Assembly (NCBI GenBank): GCA_012728015.1
Contig: JAAYFY010000093.1
Coordinates: forward strand, 1-64,000
Origin: Clostridiaceae bacterium
Lineage (GTDB): Bacteria; Bacillota; Clostridia; DSM-8532
DNA: 64,000 bases
Reading direction: 5' to 3'
Within the stretch, counting starts at the first letter, position 1. Each line of letters begins with the position of its first letter. The notes under the pieces are model-generated. The model did not search any database and was not told where the DNA came from. It saw nothing but the letters and a program-made list of their open reading frames with translations. The translations under genes were made by a program, and so were the position numbers. Below are positions 137 through 63,883 of this stretch, piece after piece.

Positions 137-200
137 GCAATCTCTTATGAAACGAAGCAGAGATTGCCGCGCCCGGCTTTGCCGGGCTCGCAATGACACA
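137..200. repeat. Palindromic REP/MITE-like repeat
   Basis: It consists of GCAATCTC, a short spacer, AGAGATTGC, then a GC palindrome CCCGGCTTTGCCGGG and CTCGCAATGACA. The same words recur near 12.9, 13.25, 28.6, 39.4, 53.2 and 63.8 kb. It lies directly downstream of the structured element and of the last glycan gene. Confidence 0.75.
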
Positions 201-53204: not shown

Positions 53205-53244
53205 CGAGATTGCCGCGCTCGTTGTCACTCACTCGCAATGACAT
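53205..53244. repeat. Palindromic REP/MITE-like repeat overlapping a gene end
   Basis: GCGAGATTGCCGCGC, a short middle and CTCGCAATGACA form a short copy of the family. Its right half codes on the minus strand for the last residues (VIASE) and the TGA of the activase gene. Confidence 0.75.
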
Positions 53245-56200
53245 TTTTTCTATACTCCCTGGTTGTCTCAAACAGGCGTGAAACCTGCAGCAGGAAAGCT
53301 TCAAGACGTGACTCGATAAGCTGGGGAAAGGCGTTGCCATCGGTTTCCACCGAGAGGAAAGGCAATGACGGCCAGACCTCCATCACCTTTGCCACGAGAT
53401 CCGCATCACGGGCTATCCTGGGCTTGTGGGAGTTAAGTTTGTTGGTCGCCAGGGCTTCGGCGATGCGTGAAGGCATACATCCGAAAGGCCCAAGGGACAG
53501 CACGCCGTCCACGCTCTCCACTATTTCGGCCATGGCTGCCCCAACCGTCAGTATGGCCTCACCCGTAAGCCGCGGGGATATCAGATCACGGGCCGCTTCT
53601 ACCAGGTGTTCCACATCATTATCAAATACACTGTAAAAACCGCAATCGGCAAACATGCCCCGGATCTCGACCTCAAAGGGGTTCTTGACCATGCATGTAA
53701 TCTTATTTTTCAGCCGGTCACCCCACCTGGACTTAGCCACAAGCCTGTGCTGGACAATGTAATCGCAGTATTTTATCCATTCCGAGACAGGGGCGGTTCT
53801 TACCCAGAAGCCCTGTTTGCTGATCCGCTCTACCAGGTACTGCCGCGAAAACCCGTCGCGCCGCACATATATCTCCCCGATGAGGGCTATGGAAGGAATA
53901 TCGCCAAGGTCGCATTTTCTTGGCAGCTCCGATAGAATCCTGGCCGCCTGCCCGATCTTCTTCTTCAAGACCTTCCACCGATCGCGGGCAATGCTTTCTA
54001 TGAGGATTTCGGATACCTCCCTGAAAACCTCTACGGCGTGATCAGGATCCCTGGCTATGGCCAGAATAGCGCTGTATATGTCGTCCAGAACATCGGACAG
54101 GACGATGGAGTGCCATGCCCTGAGGGCAAATTTAACCCCGAATCCCGCGTATGAGTTTTCGGAGGTCAGGGATAGCATGGTTACTCTGTCCAGCTTCTTT
54201 TTCCTCACTATCTCCCGCATCATGATATTGTACTGGCCGAACCGGCATGGGCCCGAGGTTTCGGGCATGAAATTCACCAGGATGTCTTCGCCGTTCCATT
54301 CCTCCTCCACATAACGCAAGAGGCTTCCGGCTGTAAGGAGCAGCGGCAGGCATTCCTTGCAAGAGGCAACAGTCCTGCCCAAGGTAAGCTCCTTTTCGCC
54401 GGCGGGCGGAAGCGATACGGTCCTGACCCCCACATATTCCATGGTGGCGGCCAGCATCCTCGCGCCGATCTCGCCCATGGAGGGCATGAGCACCTTTACC
54501 CTGGGATGGGTAAGCGGGTACCTGGAACCGTCGGGAAGCACCACCATCATTTTCCCGGCTGCAGTTTCAAGGCGGGCGGTTTGGAATGGTTCCATCCCGG
54601 CAGCAACCTCAACGCCCCGGCGGACCATATCGTTATATCTTTTCACCACGTCGATGAAAGCCTCTATACGGGTATCCACGCCCGCATCGGCGGTATGGGA
54701 GTCAAGCTCCAGGGTGAGCGACGGCTTTTGTCCCATAACATCCCTGAAGTAATTGATCAGGAATGAATCGGGGCCGCAGCTGAAATTGGTGATATAGGCA
54801 GCGAAAAGCCTGTCATGCTTTTTCACATACCTGGCGGCTTTAAGGATCCATTGACCCGACGCCCAATACATATTATCCTGGGAGCTTTCGTGTTCTAAAG
54901 GCAGGAAATCCTGGGGTATAACCCGGTAACCCCTGGACGCGAATTTTTTGGGTATCCCCATATTCCCCATGCTGGAAAAGGCATTGTACGGACGCCCGAA
55001 GAGGACCACCGAAAATCCCTCCGGGGAGGCTTCTATCTCCTCCAGGGCCTTTTCCCCGGCTTCCCTGCACTTTTTATGGAAGGCCTTTTGCGCTTTTCGC
55101 CCCACCTCAAAAGCCAGCCTGATTTCCCTGGCGCTGTGCCCAAGCCTGCGGCCCATCTCCATAAAATCGGCTTCCGCGGCTTCATACCCCCTGGTCATGT
55201 CCAGAACGGGGCTTAGAACCTCGGTCTCTGACAACCGGGGAAACGCGGCCTTGAGCGTATAGGGCTCAGACTGGACAAAAGGGCATGACACACTGACTTC
55301 ATCGCCGCCGGGAACAGGGAGGGCCTTGATATGGGGCAAGAATACCACATCGGGTTTCTTGTCCAAAAGCGATTTCAGCGTGCCATGGGCCTGCTCCACG
55401 GGCCAGCAGAAGGCCGCCCCTTCCATCAGGCATCCTTCGGCGTCGATCCTGTCGGGCAGGACCACTTTATAGCCCAGGGTCCTGAAAAAGCCCTCATATA
55501 GCGGCAGAAGGGTGTGGGTCATAAGAGAAAGATTTATCCCTATGCTCTTTCCATTGGGTTTGGTATCTTCGGGCACAAACATGCCGGCGGTCTCAAAGAG
55601 CAGCTTTTCCCTTAAGGCCACAAGGTCCAGCAAGGCCACATCCACGTCATTATGGCGGTTTATTATGTTGTAATACTTGTTGCAGGCTCCGCCGAAGGGG
55701 TATATTCTGCCATCCAGCCGGATACGGCTGATGGTGCATTTCCGGTCGCATTTTTCCTTTCCCCCGGCACAGACGAACGGCTCCTCATATATTACTTCGC
55801 GGCCCGCCAATGCTTTCAGGTCGAAGCTCTGGACGGGTACCTGCCCAAGCTCCTGCTGCGACATGGTTTCCAGCGCCACGCCATAGGCGCCCATCAGCCC
55901 CGGTTCGGGAGGCACCACGATCTCCCGCCCGGTTAGTGATGCCATGGCCACAGGCACGGCTTTGTTGTAGCAGACACCGCCCTGCATGAAAACCTTCGCG
56001 CCCACCGGACGGTTTCCCTTAACCCTGTTGAGGTAGTTCATGCATATGGAATAGACAAGCCCGGCGGCTATATCCGCCCTGGATATGCCGCTGTGGATAG
56101 CGGTTTTGATATCGCTTCCTATAAATGCCGCGCACTGGTCGCTGAAGTTTGGCGGGGCAACTCCCTTCATGGCCAGGTCTCCGATTTCCTCAACCCTCAA

Positions 56201-57532
56201 ATCCAGTGATTCCAGGGCCGACTCCTCCAGAAAAGACCCCGTTCCAGCCGAACAAGCCTCATTCATGGCATAATCCGAGGCAACGCCGCTGGTCAGGTAT
56301 GTATATTTGGCATCCTGGCCCCCAATCTCGAAAATGGTGTCTACTTCGGGATCAAAATAGGCCGCTGCCCTGGCATGGGCGATGATCTCGTTTATAACGG
56401 CGGGGGTCAGGGCATGAAGCCCGGCAATCTGCCGGCCCGAGCCGGTCACCCCAAGACCCGTTATGTTTACGGGAACGTCTATTTTAGAAGCAATACCTGC
56501 ATAGCATTTCCGGGACGCGCCCACCGGATCGCCGTTGGTTCTAAGATAAATACCCGCCAGGATGGCATTATCACCGCGCCGTACCAATACTGCCTTTGTG
56601 GTGGTTGATCCCACATCAAGTCCCAGAACACAGTCGTCGCCCGCCCTGGCATGACCCCGTATGGGCTCCATAAACCTGACTCGGGATAGGGCATCCCCCA
56701 GGGGCGGGTGCCTGGAAAAAACATGCTCCCCTTCAGTAAACAGATTATCAGCCTGCGGCGTGGGTTTTGTTTCATGGGAAAGGGCCCATATCGCCGCTCC
56801 CAGCGCCTCGAAGCAGCGGCTGTGTTCAGGGATGACCACATGGAGCGCCTCTTCCTCTAAAAACTTTACCATGATATGGTTTGAAGCGCTTCCGCCGACC
56901 AGGAGGACAGTACCCGGCTCCTCGCCCTTTAAAAGTTCGGTGATCTTCCCTGCCATCATCTTGCAGAGCCCGGAAACAACACGGGATTTGGGCGCTCCCT
57001 TGTTGAGGGCGTGGGTGCAGTCGCTCTTGCAAAACACGCTGCACCGGCCGGCCACCTTGTAGGGGTTTTCGGCATCGGCTATGTTCATGGCTTCTTCTAC
57101 AGAAAGGTCCATGCGCTTGATCTGCTGGAGGAAGAATTCACCCGTGCCCGAGGCGCATTTGTTTCCGCTTCGGACTTCGATTATCCGGCCCTCATTGTCC
57201 AGCCTGTAAACCATTAAGGTCTCCCCGCCCGCGCTTATAAGCGTACCGGCCTTTTTCCCGGTTGTTCGGGACCACCAGCTGTAAGCCGCCTCCAGGGCTT
57301 CAGGCTCGGGAATCCCGGTGGCATTTACCAGGTGCCTGAGCTTGCGCCCGGTAACAACTACCCTGTCCGGGGTTTGGGCAAAACCCCCGGCGAACAGTTG
57401 GGAAAGTATCTTCCTGGGATTCCCGCCGTGGGGAATGGACCTTGTTTTTATTATTTCTATATCGCAATGGTTGAGGCTTATCTCTGCAACGGTTACAGTA
57501 GACGCGCCGACACAGATTCCCGCTGTTTTCAT
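53225..57532 (-). CDS. Fused acyl-CoA dehydratase activase-type ATPase (BcrAD/BadFG, DUF2229)
   Basis: This 1435-residue protein joins two ASKHA ATPase halves. Half one (1-270) has ASGGE-type and GNKCASGTGEFF...GRCSVFCKSDC cysteines. Half two (about 295-560) has VLGLDVGSTTTKAVLV and EACSAGTGSFLEES...QCAAFIGSD. Both halves keep the Cys pair that holds the bridging [4Fe-4S] cluster in HgdC-type activators. A DUF2229 region (about 640-890) and an HgdB-like Cys-containing region (about 990-1400) follow, with FSCGPDSFLINYF and CKECLPLLL. Such proteins inject electrons into 2-hydroxyacyl-CoA dehydratases or double-cubane reductases. The substrate is unknown. AGAAGGAG precedes the ATG. The stop comes from a repeat. 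Confidence 0.85.
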   Translation of the reverse strand: MKTAGICVGASTVTVAEISLNHCDIEIIKTRSIPHGGNPRKILSQLFAGGFAQTPDRVVVTGRKLRHLVNATGIPEPEALEAAYSWWSRTTGKKAGTLISAGGETLMVYRLDNEGRIIEVRSGNKCASGTGEFFLQQIKRMDLSVEEAMNIADAENPYKVAGRCSVFCKSDCTHALNKGAPKSRVVSGLCKMMAGKITELLKGEEPGTVLLVGGSASNHIMVKFLEEEALHVVIPEHSRCFEALGAAIWALSHETKPTPQADNLFTEGEHVFSRHPPLGDALSRVRFMEPIRGHARAGDDCVLGLDVGSTTTKAVLVRRGDNAILAGIYLRTNGDPVGASRKCYAGIASKIDVPVNITGLGVTGSGRQIAGLHALTPAVINEIIAHARAAAYFDPEVDTIFEIGGQDAKYTYLTSGVASDYAMNEACSAGTGSFLEESALESLDLRVEEIGDLAMKGVAPPNFSDQCAAFIGSDIKTAIHSGISRADIAAGLVYSICMNYLNRVKGNRPVGAKVFMQGGVCYNKAVPVAMASLTGREIVVPPEPGLMGAYGVALETMSQQELGQVPVQSFDLKALAGREVIYEEPFVCAGGKEKCDRKCTISRIRLDGRIYPFGGACNKYYNIINRHNDVDVALLDLVALREKLLFETAGMFVPEDTKPNGKSIGINLSLMTHTLLPLYEGFFRTLGYKVVLPDRIDAEGCLMEGAAFCWPVEQAHGTLKSLLDKKPDVVFLPHIKALPVPGGDEVSVSCPFVQSEPYTLKAAFPRLSETEVLSPVLDMTRGYEAAEADFMEMGRRLGHSAREIRLAFEVGRKAQKAFHKKCREAGEKALEEIEASPEGFSVVLFGRPYNAFSSMGNMGIPKKFASRGYRVIPQDFLPLEHESSQDNMYWASGQWILKAARYVKKHDRLFAAYITNFSCGPDSFLINYFRDVMGQKPSLTLELDSHTADAGVDTRIEAFIDVVKRYNDMVRRGVEVAAGMEPFQTARLETAAGKMMVVLPDGSRYPLTHPRVKVLMPSMGEIGARMLAATMEYVGVRTVSLPPAGEKELTLGRTVASCKECLPLLLTAGSLLRYVEEEWNGEDILVNFMPETSGPCRFGQYNIMMREIVRKKKLDRVTMLSLTSENSYAGFGVKFALRAWHSIVLSDVLDDIYSAILAIARDPDHAVEVFREVSEILIESIARDRWKVLKKKIGQAARILSELPRKCDLGDIPSIALIGEIYVRRDGFSRQYLVERISKQGFWVRTAPVSEWIKYCDYIVQHRLVAKSRWGDRLKNKITCMVKNPFEVEIRGMFADCGFYSVFDNDVEHLVEAARDLISPRLTGEAILTVGAAMAEIVESVDGVLSLGPFGCMPSRIAEALATNKLNSHKPRIARDADLVAKVMEVWPSLPFLSVETDGNAFPQLIESRLEAFLLQVSRLFETTREYRKNVIASE

Positions 57533-58932: not shown

Positions 58933-59964
58933 TTAATAGCTGTATCCAGCACCCCTGGCATATTCGTTGCTGCGAAGCATATCCAGATTGTCAAGCGCCT
59001 TTCCGGTACCAACTGCCACGGCCGAGACGGCATCATCGGCAATGATTACCTTGATGCCCGTCTTGTGCTCCAGCAGCTTGTCCAGGCCATAAACCAGGCT
59101 TCCTCCGCCGGTCATGACAATTCCCCTGTCGCTGATATCCGCGGCAAGTTCGGGAGGGGTTCTCTCCAATACAGAATGGACAGCCTCAACAACGCTGGAT
59201 ACCGGTTCGTCCAGGGCATCCATCAATTCGGTGGACGTTACCGTTATGGTTTTGGGAAGCCCGGAAATAAGGTTCCTTCCCCTGATGTCCATGGAAACCT
59301 CCTCGGGCCTCGGGAATACCGTACCTATGCTTATCTTGAGCTCCTCGGCGGTCCTCTCGCCGATCATCAGGTTATGCTTTTTCCTCATATATCTTACAAT
59401 GGCTTCGTCAAACTTATCGCCTGCCACCTTGATGGATGTGCTCACAACCGTACCGCCCAGGGAGATGACAGCTATATCGGTGGTTCCGCCGCCAACATCC
59501 ACCACCATGCTCCCGCAGGCCTTGGTGATGTCAAGCCCGGCGCCGATGGCCGCGGCAATAGGTTCCTCTATAAGATAGGTCTTCCTGGCCCCCGCCTGGA
59601 TGGCGGCGTCCTCAACCGCTCTTTTTTCTACCTCTGTGACGCCGGAGGGCACGCAGATCATGACACGGGGCTTAAAGAGCCTGAAAATGCTGGATAATGT
59701 TACCCTGTTAAGAAAGTACTTAAGCATTCTCTCGGTCACATGGTAATCCGAAATAACGCCATCGCGAAGAGGACGGCAGGCTATGATGTTGCCCGGCGTT
59801 CTGCCCAGCATTCGACGCGCTTCCTCGCCCACAGCCAAAATCTTGTCTGTATTTTTGTCGATTGCAACAACAGAGGGCTCACGAAGGATGATACCCTTGC
59901 CCTTGACATAGATGAGCACCGAAGCGGTTCCCAAATCCAATCCTATATCCAATCCAAGGCCCAA
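58933..59964 (-). CDS. mbl: MreB-like actin, Mbl type
   Basis: This is a second MreB paralogue of 343 residues, with [32 protein letters not shown] at the start. MVVDVGGGTTDIAVISLGGT and IVMTGGGSLVYGLDKLL are the ATP motifs. The AVGEEARRMLGRTPGNI segment matches Bacillus Mbl better than MreB. It differs from 42977-43999 over the last 30 residues. The likely start is TTG, with AAGGGG 9 bases upstream. In Bacillus mbl lies between spoIIID and flhO, and it keeps that relative position here. Confidence 0.92.
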   Translation of the reverse strand: MGLGLDIGLDLGTASVLIYVKGKGIILREPSVVAIDKNTDKILAVGEEARRMLGRTPGNIIACRPLRDGVISDYHVTERMLKYFLNRVTLSSIFRLFKPRVMICVPSGVTEVEKRAVEDAAIQAGARKTYLIEEPIAAAIGAGLDITKACGSMVVDVGGGTTDIAVISLGGTVVSTSIKVAGDKFDEAIVRYMRKKHNLMIGERTAEELKISIGTVFPRPEEVSMDIRGRNLISGLPKTITVTSTELMDALDEPVSSVVEAVHSVLERTPPELAADISDRGIVMTGGGSLVYGLDKLLEHKTGIKVIIADDAVSAVAVGTGKALDNLDMLRSNEYARGAGYSY

Positions 59965-60100: not shown

Positions 60101-60128
60101 ACAAAAAGACCGGTTTTACCCGGTCTTT
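60101..60128 (-). terminator. Intrinsic terminator after the aminomutase operon
   Basis: AAAGACCGG, a loop of about six bases and CCGGTCTTTTT give a strong stem with a T run on the minus strand, followed by GTTT. It lies 24 bases after the stop at 60152. Confidence 0.85.
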
Positions 60129-60151
60129 CGTCATTATTACCGCATTATAAT

Positions 60152-61537
60152 CTATTCCACCCTGCTCTGCCTGAGGGAAAGCAGCTCGGGGAAGTATTCC
60201 TTGGCCAGCTGCTCCATTTCGGCATCGCTCATTACAGTGGTCCTGCCGTTTTCATACTCGTTGTCAATCCGCGCTTTGATTTTTGCCACCTTTTGGTTCT
60301 TTTTATCGATGGCCTTGTCACCCTTGAGCATGAAATAGTTATTGAGCCATGCCGCCACGCCGGCAAGCCCGGAGTGCTTATCAACCACTACAACGGGAGG
60401 CCTTCCCAGGATCTTGGTAGTGTCGAATATGTTGTAGATCTCCTCGTCCTTCAAAAGGCCGTCGGCATGTATGCCTGCCCGCGTGGCATTGAAAGCCCGG
60501 CCCACAAAGGGGGTCCTTGGCGGAATTTCGTAATTCAGCTTGTTTTCAAAGAACTCGGCAATCTCGGTGATTACCCTAAGGTCCATACCTCCCGAATCGC
60601 CCCTGAGCTGGACATATTCCATGACCATGGATTCCAGCGGGGTGTTTCCTGTTCTCTCACCGATGCCCAAAAGGGAGGTGTTCACGTTGGCGGCGCCATA
60701 CAGCCATGCGGTGGTGGAGTTGGTCACTGCCCGGTAGAAATCGTTGTGGCCATGCCATTCAAGCCACTCGGAGGGCACTTCCGCATAGTTGACCAGGCCG
60801 TATATGATCTGGGGCACGCTTCTTGGCATCGCCACGCCGGGTATGCTTACCCCCAGTCCCATGGTATCGCAGGCACGGATCTTCACAGGCATATTTGCCT
60901 GCTTCGACAGCCCCATGAGCTTGTTTACGAAGGGCAGCACGAAGCCGTAGAAATCCGACCGGGTGATGTCCTCGAGGTGGCACCGGGGAATGATTCCAGC
61001 CTCCAGCGCCGACGAAACAATACCCAAATACTGTTCCATCGCCTGGGTCCTGTTCATCTTCAGCTTCTTGAATATGTGGTAATCAGAGCAGGAAACCAGG
61101 ATTCCCGTTTCCTTGATCCCCATATCCTTGGCCAGCTGGAAATCTTCCTTTTTGGCACGTATCCATGAAGTGATCTGGGGATAGTCGTAGCCTTTTTCCA
61201 TGCATTTTGCCACGGCTTCCCTGTCCACCTTGGAGTACAGGAAGAACTCGCTCTGCTTTATGATACCGCTTCCATTGTCCAGCTTGTGGAGAAGATCAAA
61301 GAGCTTGCTGATCTCATCCACAGTATAGGGAGAACGCGCCTGCTGGCCGTCCCTGAAGGTAGTATCGGTGATGTAAAGCCTTTCAGGAATGTTCATGGGA
61401 ACGGTCCTGTGGTTGAAAACCAGCCTTGGAACTTCATTATAGGGAAAAATATTGCGAAATAGGTTCGGGTCCTTCACATCTCTGAACTGGAACTCTATTT
61501 CCATCATCCTGCTTTTCCTATTGAATTTTACGTTCAT
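60152..61537 (-). CDS. DRE-TIM synthase, candidate Re-citrate or homocitrate synthase
   Basis: The 461-residue product has the DRE-TIM metallolyase signature as DTTFRDGQQ at about 58-66 and the HxH metal pair in EWHGHNDF. LGIGERTGNTPLESMVMEYVQLRG and AGIHADGLLKDEEIYN follow the isopropylmalate, homocitrate and Re-citrate synthase group. It lacks the leucine-binding regulatory domain of LeuA. The first 50 residues are an extension unlike LeuA. No leu or lys genes are near. It starts 13 bases after the glutamate aminomutase, so a Re-citrate synthase feeding 2-oxoglutarate and glutamate is the favoured reading. Homocitrate synthase remains possible. Confidence 0.7.
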   Translation of the reverse strand: MNVKFNRKSRMMEIEFQFRDVKDPNLFRNIFPYNEVPRLVFNHRTVPMNIPERLYITDTTFRDGQQARSPYTVDEISKLFDLLHKLDNGSGIIKQSEFFLYSKVDREAVAKCMEKGYDYPQITSWIRAKKEDFQLAKDMGIKETGILVSCSDYHIFKKLKMNRTQAMEQYLGIVSSALEAGIIPRCHLEDITRSDFYGFVLPFVNKLMGLSKQANMPVKIRACDTMGLGVSIPGVAMPRSVPQIIYGLVNYAEVPSEWLEWHGHNDFYRAVTNSTTAWLYGAANVNTSLLGIGERTGNTPLESMVMEYVQLRGDSGGMDLRVITEIAEFFENKLNYEIPPRTPFVGRAFNATRAGIHADGLLKDEEIYNIFDTTKILGRPPVVVVDKHSGLAGVAAWLNNYFMLKGDKAIDKKNQKVAKIKARIDNEYENGRTTVMSDAEMEQLAKEYFPELLSLRQSRVE

Positions 61538-61550
61538 AAGCGCCCTCCGT

Positions 61551-62789
61551 TCACCGTATTTCGTTTTGTATTACAAATTTCTTGCCCTGCCAGTTCCTGA
61601 ACTCCGCCTTGTCTTTTCCGATATAAAGAATGTAATTAGGGAGAATTGGCGTTTTCCCGAGCCCTTTCGGGCCGTTGACAATATAGGTGGGAATGGCCAT
61701 TCCCGATGTCCTTCCCCTTAAGGATTCCATGATCTCGAGCCCTTCTTCTACCCGTACCCAGAAATGGGACGTGCCCTTGACCGTCTTGGGATGGAAGATG
61801 TAATAGGGCTTCACCCGGATGGTAAGAAGCGCCTGGTTCAGCTTCCGGACCACAAACTTATCATTATTGACGCCGTTTAGCAGCACCATCTGGTTTCCAA
61901 GAGGTATACCGGCGTTGGCCAGCTTTTCGCAGGCGGCTTTAGCCTCCTCGGTGATCTCCCTGGGGTGGTTGAAATGGGTATTTACATATATGGGATGATA
62001 CTTTTTCAGCATGTTGGCCAGGTTGTCGGTAATCCTCTGGGGCAGTGTAACAGGCGTTCTGGTGCCAAACCTGATTATTTCCACATGCTCAATACCTCTC
62101 AGCTCTTTAAGCATCCATTCTATGGTGGCATCGTCGAGCATGAAGGCATCACCGCCGGTGATTAGCACATCCCTTATCTCTTTGTTGTTCCGCACATAAT
62201 CTATGGCCTTTTTCAGCTTATCCCGGGAAACGTGGGTGTCGTTCTCGCCGATAAGTCTCCTTCGCTGGCAGAACCTGCAATACATGCCGCATATATTTGT
62301 AACCTTGATAATCAGCCTGTCGGGATACCTCCTGGTGATAAGCTCCTCGGGAGTCCAGCCCTCCTCGTCCATGGGATCGAGTTCCCCCTGCTCATTAAGC
62401 TCCTCAAAGCATGGTATGGCCTGCCTCTTTACCCCGCAGTCCGGGTCATCGGGATCAATGACCGACAGATAATACGGGGATATTCCAAACCGGTATTTCT
62501 CGGTAACCTTCCTGATCTTTTGGGTTTCATCCTCGGACAGCCCAATAGCGTCACAAATATCCTCAACCCGTGTAAAGCGGTTCCTTAACTGCCATTTATA
62601 GTCGTTCCATTGTTCTTCGGAAGCGCCGAGCTGCTTCATTATTCTTTCCTTTTGCCGCGCGACCTTTTCCCTGTCCTGTAAGCCGGTTTTTATAGTGTGT
62701 TTGAGGCTTTCATAATCCCCGATACTGCGCCTTAGTTCGTCAAACCTGTCATAATCGGTCTTTTGGCCTGTTTTCATAGCGTTGTTCAT
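61551..62789 (-). CDS. eam: Glutamate 2,3-aminomutase (radical SAM/PLP)
   Basis: The 412-residue product belongs to the lysine 2,3-aminomutase family. The radical SAM cluster is C167, C171 and C174 (CGMYCRFC), and the PLP lysine is K379 in GPKGLGK. In lysine enzymes two aspartates (293 and 330 in C. subterminale) hold the side-chain amine. Here they are K335 (YIFHPK) and N372 (YIVN), spaced 37 residues apart as expected. Lys and Asn at these sites define glutamate 2,3-aminomutase, which makes beta-glutamate, a compatible solute. GGGAGG lies before the ATG at 62789. A c-di-AMP riboswitch and terminator precede it. Confidence 0.88.
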   Translation of the reverse strand: MNNAMKTGQKTDYDRFDELRRSIGDYESLKHTIKTGLQDREKVARQKERIMKQLGASEEQWNDYKWQLRNRFTRVEDICDAIGLSEDETQKIRKVTEKYRFGISPYYLSVIDPDDPDCGVKRQAIPCFEELNEQGELDPMDEEGWTPEELITRRYPDRLIIKVTNICGMYCRFCQRRRLIGENDTHVSRDKLKKAIDYVRNNKEIRDVLITGGDAFMLDDATIEWMLKELRGIEHVEIIRFGTRTPVTLPQRITDNLANMLKKYHPIYVNTHFNHPREITEEAKAACEKLANAGIPLGNQMVLLNGVNNDKFVVRKLNQALLTIRVKPYYIFHPKTVKGTSHFWVRVEEGLEIMESLRGRTSGMAIPTYIVNGPKGLGKTPILPNYILYIGKDKAEFRNWQGKKFVIQNEIR

Positions 62790-62811
62790 TTTCAACCTCC
62801 CTTCGTATATT

Positions 62812-62857
62812 AAAAAACAAAAGCGATTGACACTAACCACAGAGTGCAAATCGCTTT
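62812..62857 (-). terminator. Riboswitch expression-platform terminator
   Basis: On the minus strand AAAGCGATT pairs with AATCGCTTT around a loop of about 20 bases and is followed by TGTTTTTT. It lies between the aptamer and the aminomutase start, 23 bases before the ATG, as expected for an OFF switch. Confidence 0.85.
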
Positions 62858-62878
62858 AAAGGCAAAAATATCCCGTTC

Positions 62879-63020
62879 TCCCTTCAAAGCTTCCGAGGTT
62901 AGCTGACGGATTCGGGCCGAAAGGGCTTAGCCCTACCGGAGTATTTCCGGATTCACCCCACAGATTGGTTCCCCCGTATCCTGTTCCAAGATTATAGAAA
63001 ACAGGAATTCAGCACTTCAT
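62879..63020 (-). promoter_or_regulatory. c-di-AMP riboswitch (ydaO/yuaA class)
   Basis: Read on the minus strand the element has ACGGGGGAACC, then TGGGGTGAATCC, a variable hairpin, TAGGGCTAAGCCC, and the hallmark CCCGAATCCGTCAGCTAACCTCGG...GAAGGGAG. These blocks and their order match the ydaO/yuaA consensus as remembered. The 5' P1 strand is placed near 63011-63020. This RNA binds cyclic di-AMP and usually turns downstream genes off when bound. The 5' boundary is approximate. Confidence 0.93.
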
Positions 63021-63055
63021 AGGCTATACAGTTATATGTTGTATCGCCGTAGCTT

Positions 63056-63084
63056 ATTATACCGTATTTTGGGTTAATGGTCAA
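63056..63084 (-). promoter_or_regulatory. Sigma-A promoter for the riboswitch-aminomutase operon
   Basis: TTGACC (complement at 63079-63084) and a perfect TATAAT (complement at 63056-63061) are 17 bases apart. Transcription would begin about 30 bases upstream of the aptamer. Confidence 0.88.
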
Positions 63085-63141: not shown

Positions 63142-63163
63142 AAAAAGCCGGTGTTACCCGACT
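63142..63163 (-). terminator. Terminator overlapping the spoIIID stop codon
   Basis: AGTCGG and CCGGCT (one G-U pair) close on a loop that contains the TAA of spoIIID. TTTTTG follows on the minus strand. Confidence 0.6.
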
Positions 63164-63417
63164 TTTCTGCCTTCCCTGCCATATTTCATCCTGGTCGCTT
63201 CGCCTCCGCGGATATGCCTTTCCGCTTTGTTCTCATCCAGTATCCTTTTTACCTGCCCTGCCATTAATGGGTCAAGTTTTGCGAGCCTTTCTGTTACATC
63301 CTTGTGCACCGTGCTTTTGCTGATTCCGAAATTCTGTGCAGCCGCTCGGACCGTAGTCCTGTTTTCAATGATGAAGCTTCCAAGCTCCAGGGCGCGTTCT
63401 TCTATGTAATGTCTCAT
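63154..63417 (-). CDS. spoIIID: Sporulation transcriptional regulator SpoIIID
   Basis: This mother-cell DNA-binding protein changes sigma-E and sigma-K gene expression. The 87-residue product begins MRHYIEERALELGSFIIENRTTVR. It has the helix-turn-helix AAQNFGISKSTVHKDVTERL and the basic tail region HIRGGEATRMKYGREGRKVG. Match to the Bacillus protein is strong along the whole length. The ATG at 63417 follows GGGAGG by 7 bases. It is separated from mbl by the riboswitch-aminomutase operon, unlike in Bacillus. Confidence 0.96.
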   Translation of the reverse strand: MRHYIEERALELGSFIIENRTTVRAAAQNFGISKSTVHKDVTERLAKLDPLMAGQVKRILDENKAERHIRGGEATRMKYGREGRKVG

Positions 63418-63797: not shown

Positions 63798-63883
63798 TGC
63801 GAGATTGCTTCGTCACTTCGTTACTCGCAATGACATTTGGGTGTGTCATTGCTAGCCCGGCAAAGCCGGGCGCGGCAATCTCT
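63798..63883. repeat. Two adjacent palindromic REP/MITE-like repeats
   Basis: The first is TGCGAGATTGC...CTCGCAATGACA. The second is TGTCATTGC, then CCCGGCAAAGCCGGG and GCGGCAATCTCTT, in opposite order. A third start, ATTGTCATTTCGCAGCG, lies at the very end of the window (about 63984-64000). Confidence 0.75.

Follow-up and report, generated by a model that had tools for sequence, protein, structure and literature searches.

Here, we describe a two-gene operon in the genome of a Clostridiaceae bacterium (GenBank assembly GCA_012728015.1), found on the minus strand of contig JAAYFY010000093.1 within a stretch of 64,000 nucleotides (nt) that was analysed as a whole and is called the window below. 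The operon has its own promoter-like site, a riboswitch of the class that senses cyclic di-AMP (c-di-AMP) and its own terminator, and it sits between spoIIID and mreB/mbl (Table 1). Its first gene probably encodes a glutamate 2,3-aminomutase (EAM) making beta-glutamate, and its second most likely a Re-type citrate synthase. An initial annotation had listed a promoter, a ydaO/yuaA aptamer, a terminator, an aminomutase, a DRE-TIM synthase and a shared terminator, and all of these are present on the minus strand. The host genome of 2.19 Mb is 99.87% complete and has one gene with a diadenylate cyclase domain (c-di-AMP cyclase). We consider it likely that the operon is repressed by c-di-AMP and makes the osmolyte beta-glutamate together with the carbon feed for it.

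Table 1. Features of the operon and the genes on either side of it (window positions)
Feature	Positions	Strand	Remarks
Promoter, sigma-70-type, TTGACC-17 nt-TATAAT	63056..63084	-	11/12 consensus match; consensus match only
c-di-AMP (ydaO/yuaA) riboswitch aptamer, RF00379	62873..63024	-	96.5 bits, gathering cut-off 38
Antiterminator 5' arm, GCUUUGAAGG	62881..62890	-	first 3 nt are the aptamer P1 3' strand
Antiterminator 3' arm, CCUUUAAAGC	62853..62862	-	final 5 nt start the terminator stem
Riboswitch intrinsic terminator, stem-loop and T run	62812..62857, hairpin ~62820-62857	-	9-bp stem, T-rich tail
KamA-family radical-SAM aminomutase, glutamate type (EAM-A clade), 412 aa	61551..62789	-	ATG at 62789 after AGGGAGG; stop ends at 61551
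DRE-TIM (HMGL-like) synthase, Re-citrate synthase family, 461 aa	60152..61537	-	starts 13 nt past the aminomutase gene, preceded by GGAGGG
Intrinsic terminator common to both genes	~60104..60129	-	9-bp stem, -16.0 kcal/mol, then T run
spoIIID, flanking, outside operon	63157..63414	-	TIGR02844 125 bits, cut-off 111.5
mreB/mbl, flanking, outside operon	58933..59964	-	PF06723 481.8 bits

Riboswitch and expression platform

The aptamer matches RF00379 over the complete model (1-134 of 134) at 96.5 bits (gathering cut-off 38; E 1.4e-21), strong confirmation of the annotated class, and is the sole match at E <= 0.001 in the genome. The promoter-like site upstream is the best among 10 sites in the scanned region, with 5.0 expected in shuffles. 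Downstream, GCUUUGAAGG can pair with CCUUUAAAGC. This stretch folds at -16.2 kcal/mol (z -3.6), a stability reached by none of 200 shuffles; for the riboswitch terminator the value is -14.7 kcal/mol (z -2.8), equalled by 2 of 200. In the Rfam alignment the first three bases of GCUUUGAAGG are the 3' strand of the aptamer helix P1, and the last five bases of CCUUUAAAGC open the terminator stem. Because the antiterminator arms share bases with P1 and with the terminator stem, the three helices are mutually exclusive, in the sequence expected for an OFF switch. The expression platform couples P1 to the terminator, a layout that fits the annotation's proposal that c-di-AMP switches the operon off; both ligand binding and the direction of control are predicted here from the computed aptamer and its competing hairpins. 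It is very improbable that the riboswitch is instead an ON switch or degenerate. The short overlap of 3 nt between P1 and the antiterminator would suit such a reading, but the aptamer is full length and carries the conserved blocks of its relatives, and a terminator behind the aptamer with an antiterminator set against P1 is the OFF geometry described for Dehalobacter in passages of PMC9337991.

The same pairing was looked for in 19 leaders that precede EAM or citrate synthase genes, by letting the P1 3' strand pair with the following 52 nt and comparing the result with 300 shuffles. For 13 of the 19 leaders a pairing as stable occurs in at most 15 of the 300 shuffles; the pairing in G043 lies elsewhere, so that the antiterminator passes in 12. 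In the window leader it is matched in stability by 1 of 300 shuffles. Nine of the 19 leaders have 10 or more unbroken antiterminator pairs, and the G059 leader has a matched extra pair. For alignment, 17 leaders were laid out, of which G046 and G330 were dropped (15 left) and then G043 as well, the reason being no clear helix or near terminator; the resulting alignment A4 thus has 14 leaders, and the 19-leader test restores all of those dropped and adds G282 and G305, likewise not in A4. The antiterminator helix is paired in 92.1% of A4 cells, against 27-62% when it is slid, and 9 of 500 shuffles reach the A4 covariation score. A stable hairpin of -10.6 to -20.4 kcal/mol follows in each of the 15 leaders checked for it. 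We also built an aptamer model, R1, from 22 aptamers of the same loci, which recovers its own members by construction because it was built from them; the Rfam model agrees with it where both run.

The two enzymes

Sequence alone places both operon enzymes in known superfamilies. The aminomutase scores 630.5 bits against the glutamate 2,3-aminomutase model TIGR04368 over nearly the full model, where the cut-off is 650, compared with 448.2 for the lysine model TIGR03820 (cut-off 525.4) and 366 for the arginine model (cut-off 600). It has K and N where lysine 2,3-aminomutase 2a5h has the substrate-binding D and D, and we take Lys and Asn in place of these two lysine-binding Asp residues to mark a glutamate enzyme. 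In the aminomutase tree all 45 EAM rows carry K/N, and all 3 lysine-type rows carry D/D. The residue test thus favours glutamate over lysine as the predicted substrate, in agreement with the initial annotation, and a lysine-type aminomutase is ruled out by the K/N residues and the TIGR03820 score. The enzyme shares K/N with TIGR04368 proteins and belongs to a separate clade, EAM-A, of 26 rows (support 100/100); the 19 further EAM rows, spread over more than one clade and including all tree rows above the TIGR04368 cut-off, are 51-59% identical to it.

The second enzyme belongs to the DRE-TIM superfamily, as does the Re-citrate synthase of the Clostridium kluyveri type. The motifs TDTTFRDGQQ, HGHND and GIGERTGN, which we take to be active-site motifs, are invariant across the 15 rows of alignment A1. 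Homologues occur at 39 places in 148 genomes, 8 in the enzyme's own clade (73-100% identity) and 31 outside it (56-67%). We examined the surroundings of 15 of these 31: aconitase adjoins the homologue in seven, in one of which isocitrate dehydrogenase comes next, and in an eighth isocitrate dehydrogenase is one gene away. Neither gene was found in the other seven, two of which are short stretches, with some open reading frames (ORFs) outside the scan. A wider homologue search gave at least 80 loci, and surroundings were examined for 10 (six top hits and four chosen by species name). All five named-record loci examined outside the clade have aconitase or isocitrate dehydrogenase within two ORFs (BLAST); they include those of Clostridium ragsdalei, Blautia schinkii, Roseburia inulinivorans and Mobilisporobacter senegalensis. 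In the citrate synthase tree (midpoint root) the window clade of 13 rows has support 100/99, and it joins C. ragsdalei, G336 and G061 with support 100/99; in G061 the DRE-TIM gene is followed by aconitase and isocitrate dehydrogenase. The C. ragsdalei homologue is 61% identical to the window enzyme, in a comparison that contains no characterised Re-citrate synthase. The enzyme hence groups with genes linked to aconitase or isocitrate dehydrogenase, a setting also described for the Re-citrate synthase of C. thermocellum in parts of PMC6115520.

If the DRE-TIM synthase made something else, such as homocitrate or citramalate, the operon would have no dedicated carbon feed to glutamate. No NCBIfam equivalog cut-off is met by the enzyme, its best models are homocitrate and isopropylmalate synthases, its clade is not itself beside aconitase in the loci examined, and DRE-TIM enzymes change substrate readily. 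All 20 listed synthase and lyase models nevertheless score less than half their cut-off (best 161.5 against 462.9, TIGR02660), aconitase and isocitrate dehydrogenase are found close to members of the adjacent clade and of the wider family, and the three motifs are invariant in A1; we regard a different product as distinctly unlikely and a Re-type citrate synthase as the most likely assignment.

This enzyme is not the only citrate synthase of the genome. Contig C63 of the host has aconitase, NADP-isocitrate dehydrogenase, two TrkA-domain genes and a Si-citrate synthase within ~7 kb, the three enzymes all over their NCBIfam cut-offs. Since the genome has a Si-citrate synthase, the operon enzyme would, if the assignment is right, be a second, extra one; unlike the Re-citrate synthase of the C. 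kluyveri type it is also paired with an EAM and a riboswitch. The two TrkA-domain genes, a domain of potassium transport, are flanked by isocitrate dehydrogenase on one side and Si-citrate synthase on the other (L257:4784-6086). As a separate observation, two metagenome genomes labelled Actinomycetota (L145, L146) have citrate synthases 76-77% identical to that of the window, with no riboswitch or EAM in the stretch examined, and these may reflect either transfer or mislabelled bins.

Recurrence of the riboswitch with its genes

Riboswitches were placed by a scan of the 148 genomes and by direct scans of individual loci. The order riboswitch-EAM-citrate synthase is found in G000, in three other genomes of the window's genus (G002, G003, G004) and, in a different family, in G043, where there is a second citrate synthase copy of the type outside the clade (60%) as well. 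In G001 the order is inferred, given that the genes are split over two contigs, with the riboswitch 116 nt ahead of a gene fragment. Because the aptamer is unique in the genome and the order recurs in other genomes, the arrangement is not due to chance.

The pairing of riboswitch and aminomutase for which the initial annotation proposed a survey recurs in 16 of 25 scorable EAM-A genes. None of the 19 EAM rows outside EAM-A has a riboswitch in up to 1.5 kb of upstream sequence, so a riboswitch on all glutamate aminomutases is ruled out. On the EAM tree 2 changes are enough to account for where the riboswitch is present, whereas shuffles need 13.7 on average; a single gain plus a single loss within part of the window's family would do. 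In this scoring L243 was counted with a riboswitch and L022, with 29 nt of upstream sequence, was left out; three hits in the EAM-A range are outside the tree, namely G001 (split contigs), G018 (a fragment) and G148, whose sole riboswitch match, among the matches listed, is on another contig. Riboswitch and EAM gene stay together across several families, and in the tree the EAM genes of f1, f37, f41 and f42 do not separate by family, which suggests that the two were transferred jointly.

The citrate synthase gene follows the same switch on its own as well. In G127 the EAM and citrate synthase genes are on different contigs, each with its own riboswitch, and in G050 and G305 (truncated at a contig end) the riboswitch is followed by a citrate synthase gene with no EAM, which makes three genomes in which it precedes the citrate synthase gene without an aminomutase. 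This points to EAM and citrate synthase as parts of one regulon. Within the stretches examined, no riboswitch was found in any of the 61 citrate synthase tree rows outside the clade, nor in any of the 80 loci listed from the wider search; within the clade it is not universal, 5 of 13 members lacking one. Directly behind the EAM of G127 is a 549-aa ORF (L107:6797-8446) with no NCBIfam match.

Some of these loci have a salt-related setting. In three f46 genomes (G093 L227, G144 L228, G189 L231) the riboswitch-EAM unit is directly behind Mrp-like cation/proton antiporter genes, with best matches under the cut-offs of the families tested in L227 and L231. In G282 (L243:4306-4626) the c-di-AMP aptamer of the EAM is preceded, at a distance of 68 nt, by a Na+ riboswitch match of 41.3 bits, slightly above the cut-off of 40.5. 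The two make a probable tandem before a gene predicted to be of glutamate type, similar to the tandem over ablA in Dehalobacter. Such a tandem is not the rule: the window has no Na+ riboswitch, and none of the other 41 of the 42 EAM loci scanned has a match.

The same riboswitch class also heads genes of the lysine branch. In G403 and G347 it stands before dapB, a lysine 2,3-aminomutase (D/D, above cut-off) and a beta-lysine acetyltransferase, and in G298 and G336 before ablA-ablB; in G271 it is followed by dapB-ablA-ablB, but with ~1 kb and group II intron matches in between (the latter at L248:4123-4949). No Na+ aptamer match was found in these five loci (L246-L250). They were picked for close riboswitch and gene coordinates and show existence, not frequency. 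A precursor enzyme and a beta-aminomutase therefore appear under one c-di-AMP switch twice, for lysine and for glutamate, and the ablA-ablB and dapB-ablA-ablB loci look like the lysine-branch counterpart of the window operon.

Proposed role of the operon

At high c-di-AMP the aptamer would fold and P1 would keep the 3' strand that the antiterminator needs, so that the terminator would form and neither gene would be transcribed. When c-di-AMP falls, as in a hyperosmotic or low-potassium state, the 10-bp antiterminator would form and RNA polymerase would read on. The Re-type citrate synthase would then join acetyl-CoA to oxaloacetate, the extra citrate would run via aconitase and isocitrate dehydrogenase to 2-oxoglutarate and then glutamate, and the radical-SAM EAM would turn glutamate into beta-glutamate, a poorly metabolised anionic solute that would accumulate as an osmolyte. 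Osmotic stress as the ON trigger, part of the annotation's proposal, is an inference, and low potassium is a possible trigger too.

Beta-glutamate might also be made for a non-osmotic use, for example as part of a peptide or secondary metabolite, or in fermentation. To our knowledge the characterised glutamate 2,3-aminomutase of Clostridioides difficile has no settled role, and the two-gene operon contains no transporter or acetyltransferase gene, both of which leave room for such a use. The operon contains no biosynthetic or fermentative gene either, its regulator is an osmotic and potassium messenger, and riboswitch and gene are kept together across several families, which makes a non-osmotic purpose improbable.

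An unlikely, though weightier, alternative is that the operon answers chiefly to potassium, a shortage of which would bring c-di-AMP down, and that its enzymes rebuild glutamate and counter-ion pools, with beta-glutamate a by-way and not a compatible solute. The TrkA-domain genes on C63, between the host isocitrate dehydrogenase and Si-citrate synthase genes, would fit this, as would the account in parts of PMC8822347 of c-di-AMP as a potassium signal and of low potassium raising the demand for tricarboxylic acid (TCA) cycle intermediates and glutamate in Bacillus subtilis. Glutamate alone would need no 2,3-aminomutase, however, and an anion poorly replaces a cation. The same riboswitch class also heads N-acetyl-beta-lysine genes, three EAM genes are behind Mrp-like antiporter genes, and one is preceded by the probable Na+ riboswitch, all of which speaks against this alternative.

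Several findings weigh against a c-di-AMP-repressed osmolyte operon with its own carbon feed. On the RNA side, the antiterminator is not beyond chance in six leaders (G127e, G144, G172, G046, G330 and G282) and the G043 pairing is at another place, two-sided change occurs at only 3 A4 pairs with one sequence each, and the A4 covariation rests on 14 leaders chosen out of 19. As to the enzymes, the TIGR04368 shortfall is common to all EAM-A hits surveyed (<650, with passing hits only outside EAM-A), direct comparisons of the second enzyme include no characterised Re-citrate synthase sequence, and at the loci examined neither aconitase nor isocitrate dehydrogenase adjoins any member of its clade. 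Nine of the 25 EAM-A genes have no riboswitch, eight of them in the window's own family, where four are followed by asnS (L234-L237, in G012, G006, G008 and G017), and for 5 of the 13 citrate synthase clade members (68-77% identity) the stretch examined contains no riboswitch and no EAM. Early nuclear magnetic resonance evidence from methanogens argued against an aminomutase origin of beta-glutamate, as reported in parts of PMC1224877; the same source describes beta-glutamate as an osmolyte of methanogens whose pool changes rather little and which a few bacteria contain as well. The initial interpretation is, on balance, well supported, its general principle partly published, while the ligand, the enzyme products and the osmotic role are predictions from sequence.

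Targets often reported for c-di-AMP riboswitches are potassium and osmolyte transport and cell-wall genes. The window riboswitch has this same aptamer class and OFF-type transcription control, here over synthesis genes. The annotation's view that a c-di-AMP switch governs the making of a solute, not just its import, is supported, but the principle is already published for lysine 2,3-aminomutase: passages of PMC9337991 describe c-di-AMP control of termination at ablA in Dehalobacter, OFF in vitro, and name dapB as a tandem target. The Na+-I/c-di-AMP tandem over ablA of Dehalobacter sp. CF resembles the window in having an aptamer and terminator over a KamA-family aminomutase, whose product is a beta-amino-acid osmolyte precursor. 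Unlike it, the window has no Na+ riboswitch, its enzyme is of the glutamate type, and a citrate synthase is included or separately controlled. The passages also name eam among Na+ riboswitch genes and propose beta-glutamate as a solute. A Na+-I riboswitch over eam is, like that of the window, an osmotic-signal riboswitch on a glutamate 2,3-aminomutase gene; the ligand differs, and the main-text passages of PMC9337991 mention no c-di-AMP aptamer over eam. In the open-licence literature, aminomutase or beta-glutamate together with c-di-AMP leads to this paper only.

For the carbon feed, parts of PMC8822347 report that in Listeria and Lactococcus pyruvate carboxylase, which acts one step ahead of citrate, is inhibited by c-di-AMP. 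There too c-di-AMP holds back the carbon that enters the citrate-glutamate branch, but it does so by binding protein, directly or via DarB, whereas in the window it would act through RNA at the next enzyme. We found nothing in the open-licence literature on c-di-AMP control of a glutamate branch with its own citrate synthase, nor anything there that links a c-di-AMP riboswitch to citrate synthase. As far as that literature shows, two elements are new: the EAM-A clade, whose expression platform is conserved, and, more importantly, an additional citrate synthase under the same switch. The DRE-TIM synthase, left uninterpreted in the initial annotation, is thus the newer part of the finding.

We lean slightly towards a broader interpretation, in which a riboswitch regulon with a dedicated citrate synthase gates both the entry to the citrate-glutamate branch and the final beta-glutamate step, as one case of a general rule for c-di-AMP riboswitches of this bacterial class, which would control 'osmolyte factories'. 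Each factory would combine an enzyme that supplies the precursor with a beta-aminomutase, and the glutamate and lysine versions would have arisen independently. If the operon works as proposed, glutamate 2,3-aminomutase would gain a function in the cell and bacteria a route for making beta-glutamate, and c-di-AMP riboswitches would reach into central carbon metabolism. It would also offer a reason for the presence of two citrate synthase kinds in some Clostridia, an open question according to parts of PMC6115520. The making of a solute, from its raw material onward, seems tied to cell water and potassium balance.

Some minor observations concern the surroundings of these genes. In three of the four loci L234-L237, dapF and a dapL-like aminotransferase, recognised by the look of the sequence, follow as well. 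A 1435-aa ORF in the window (53225-57532, minus strand) resembles, as judged by eye, a fused acyl-CoA dehydratase activase, and a homologue is also downstream of the operon in G002, G003 and G004. A 19-nt G+C-rich palindrome is present in exact copies at window positions 170-188 (minus strand) and 63854-63872 (plus strand), where 0.03 would be expected by chance, and is perhaps a dispersed repeat.

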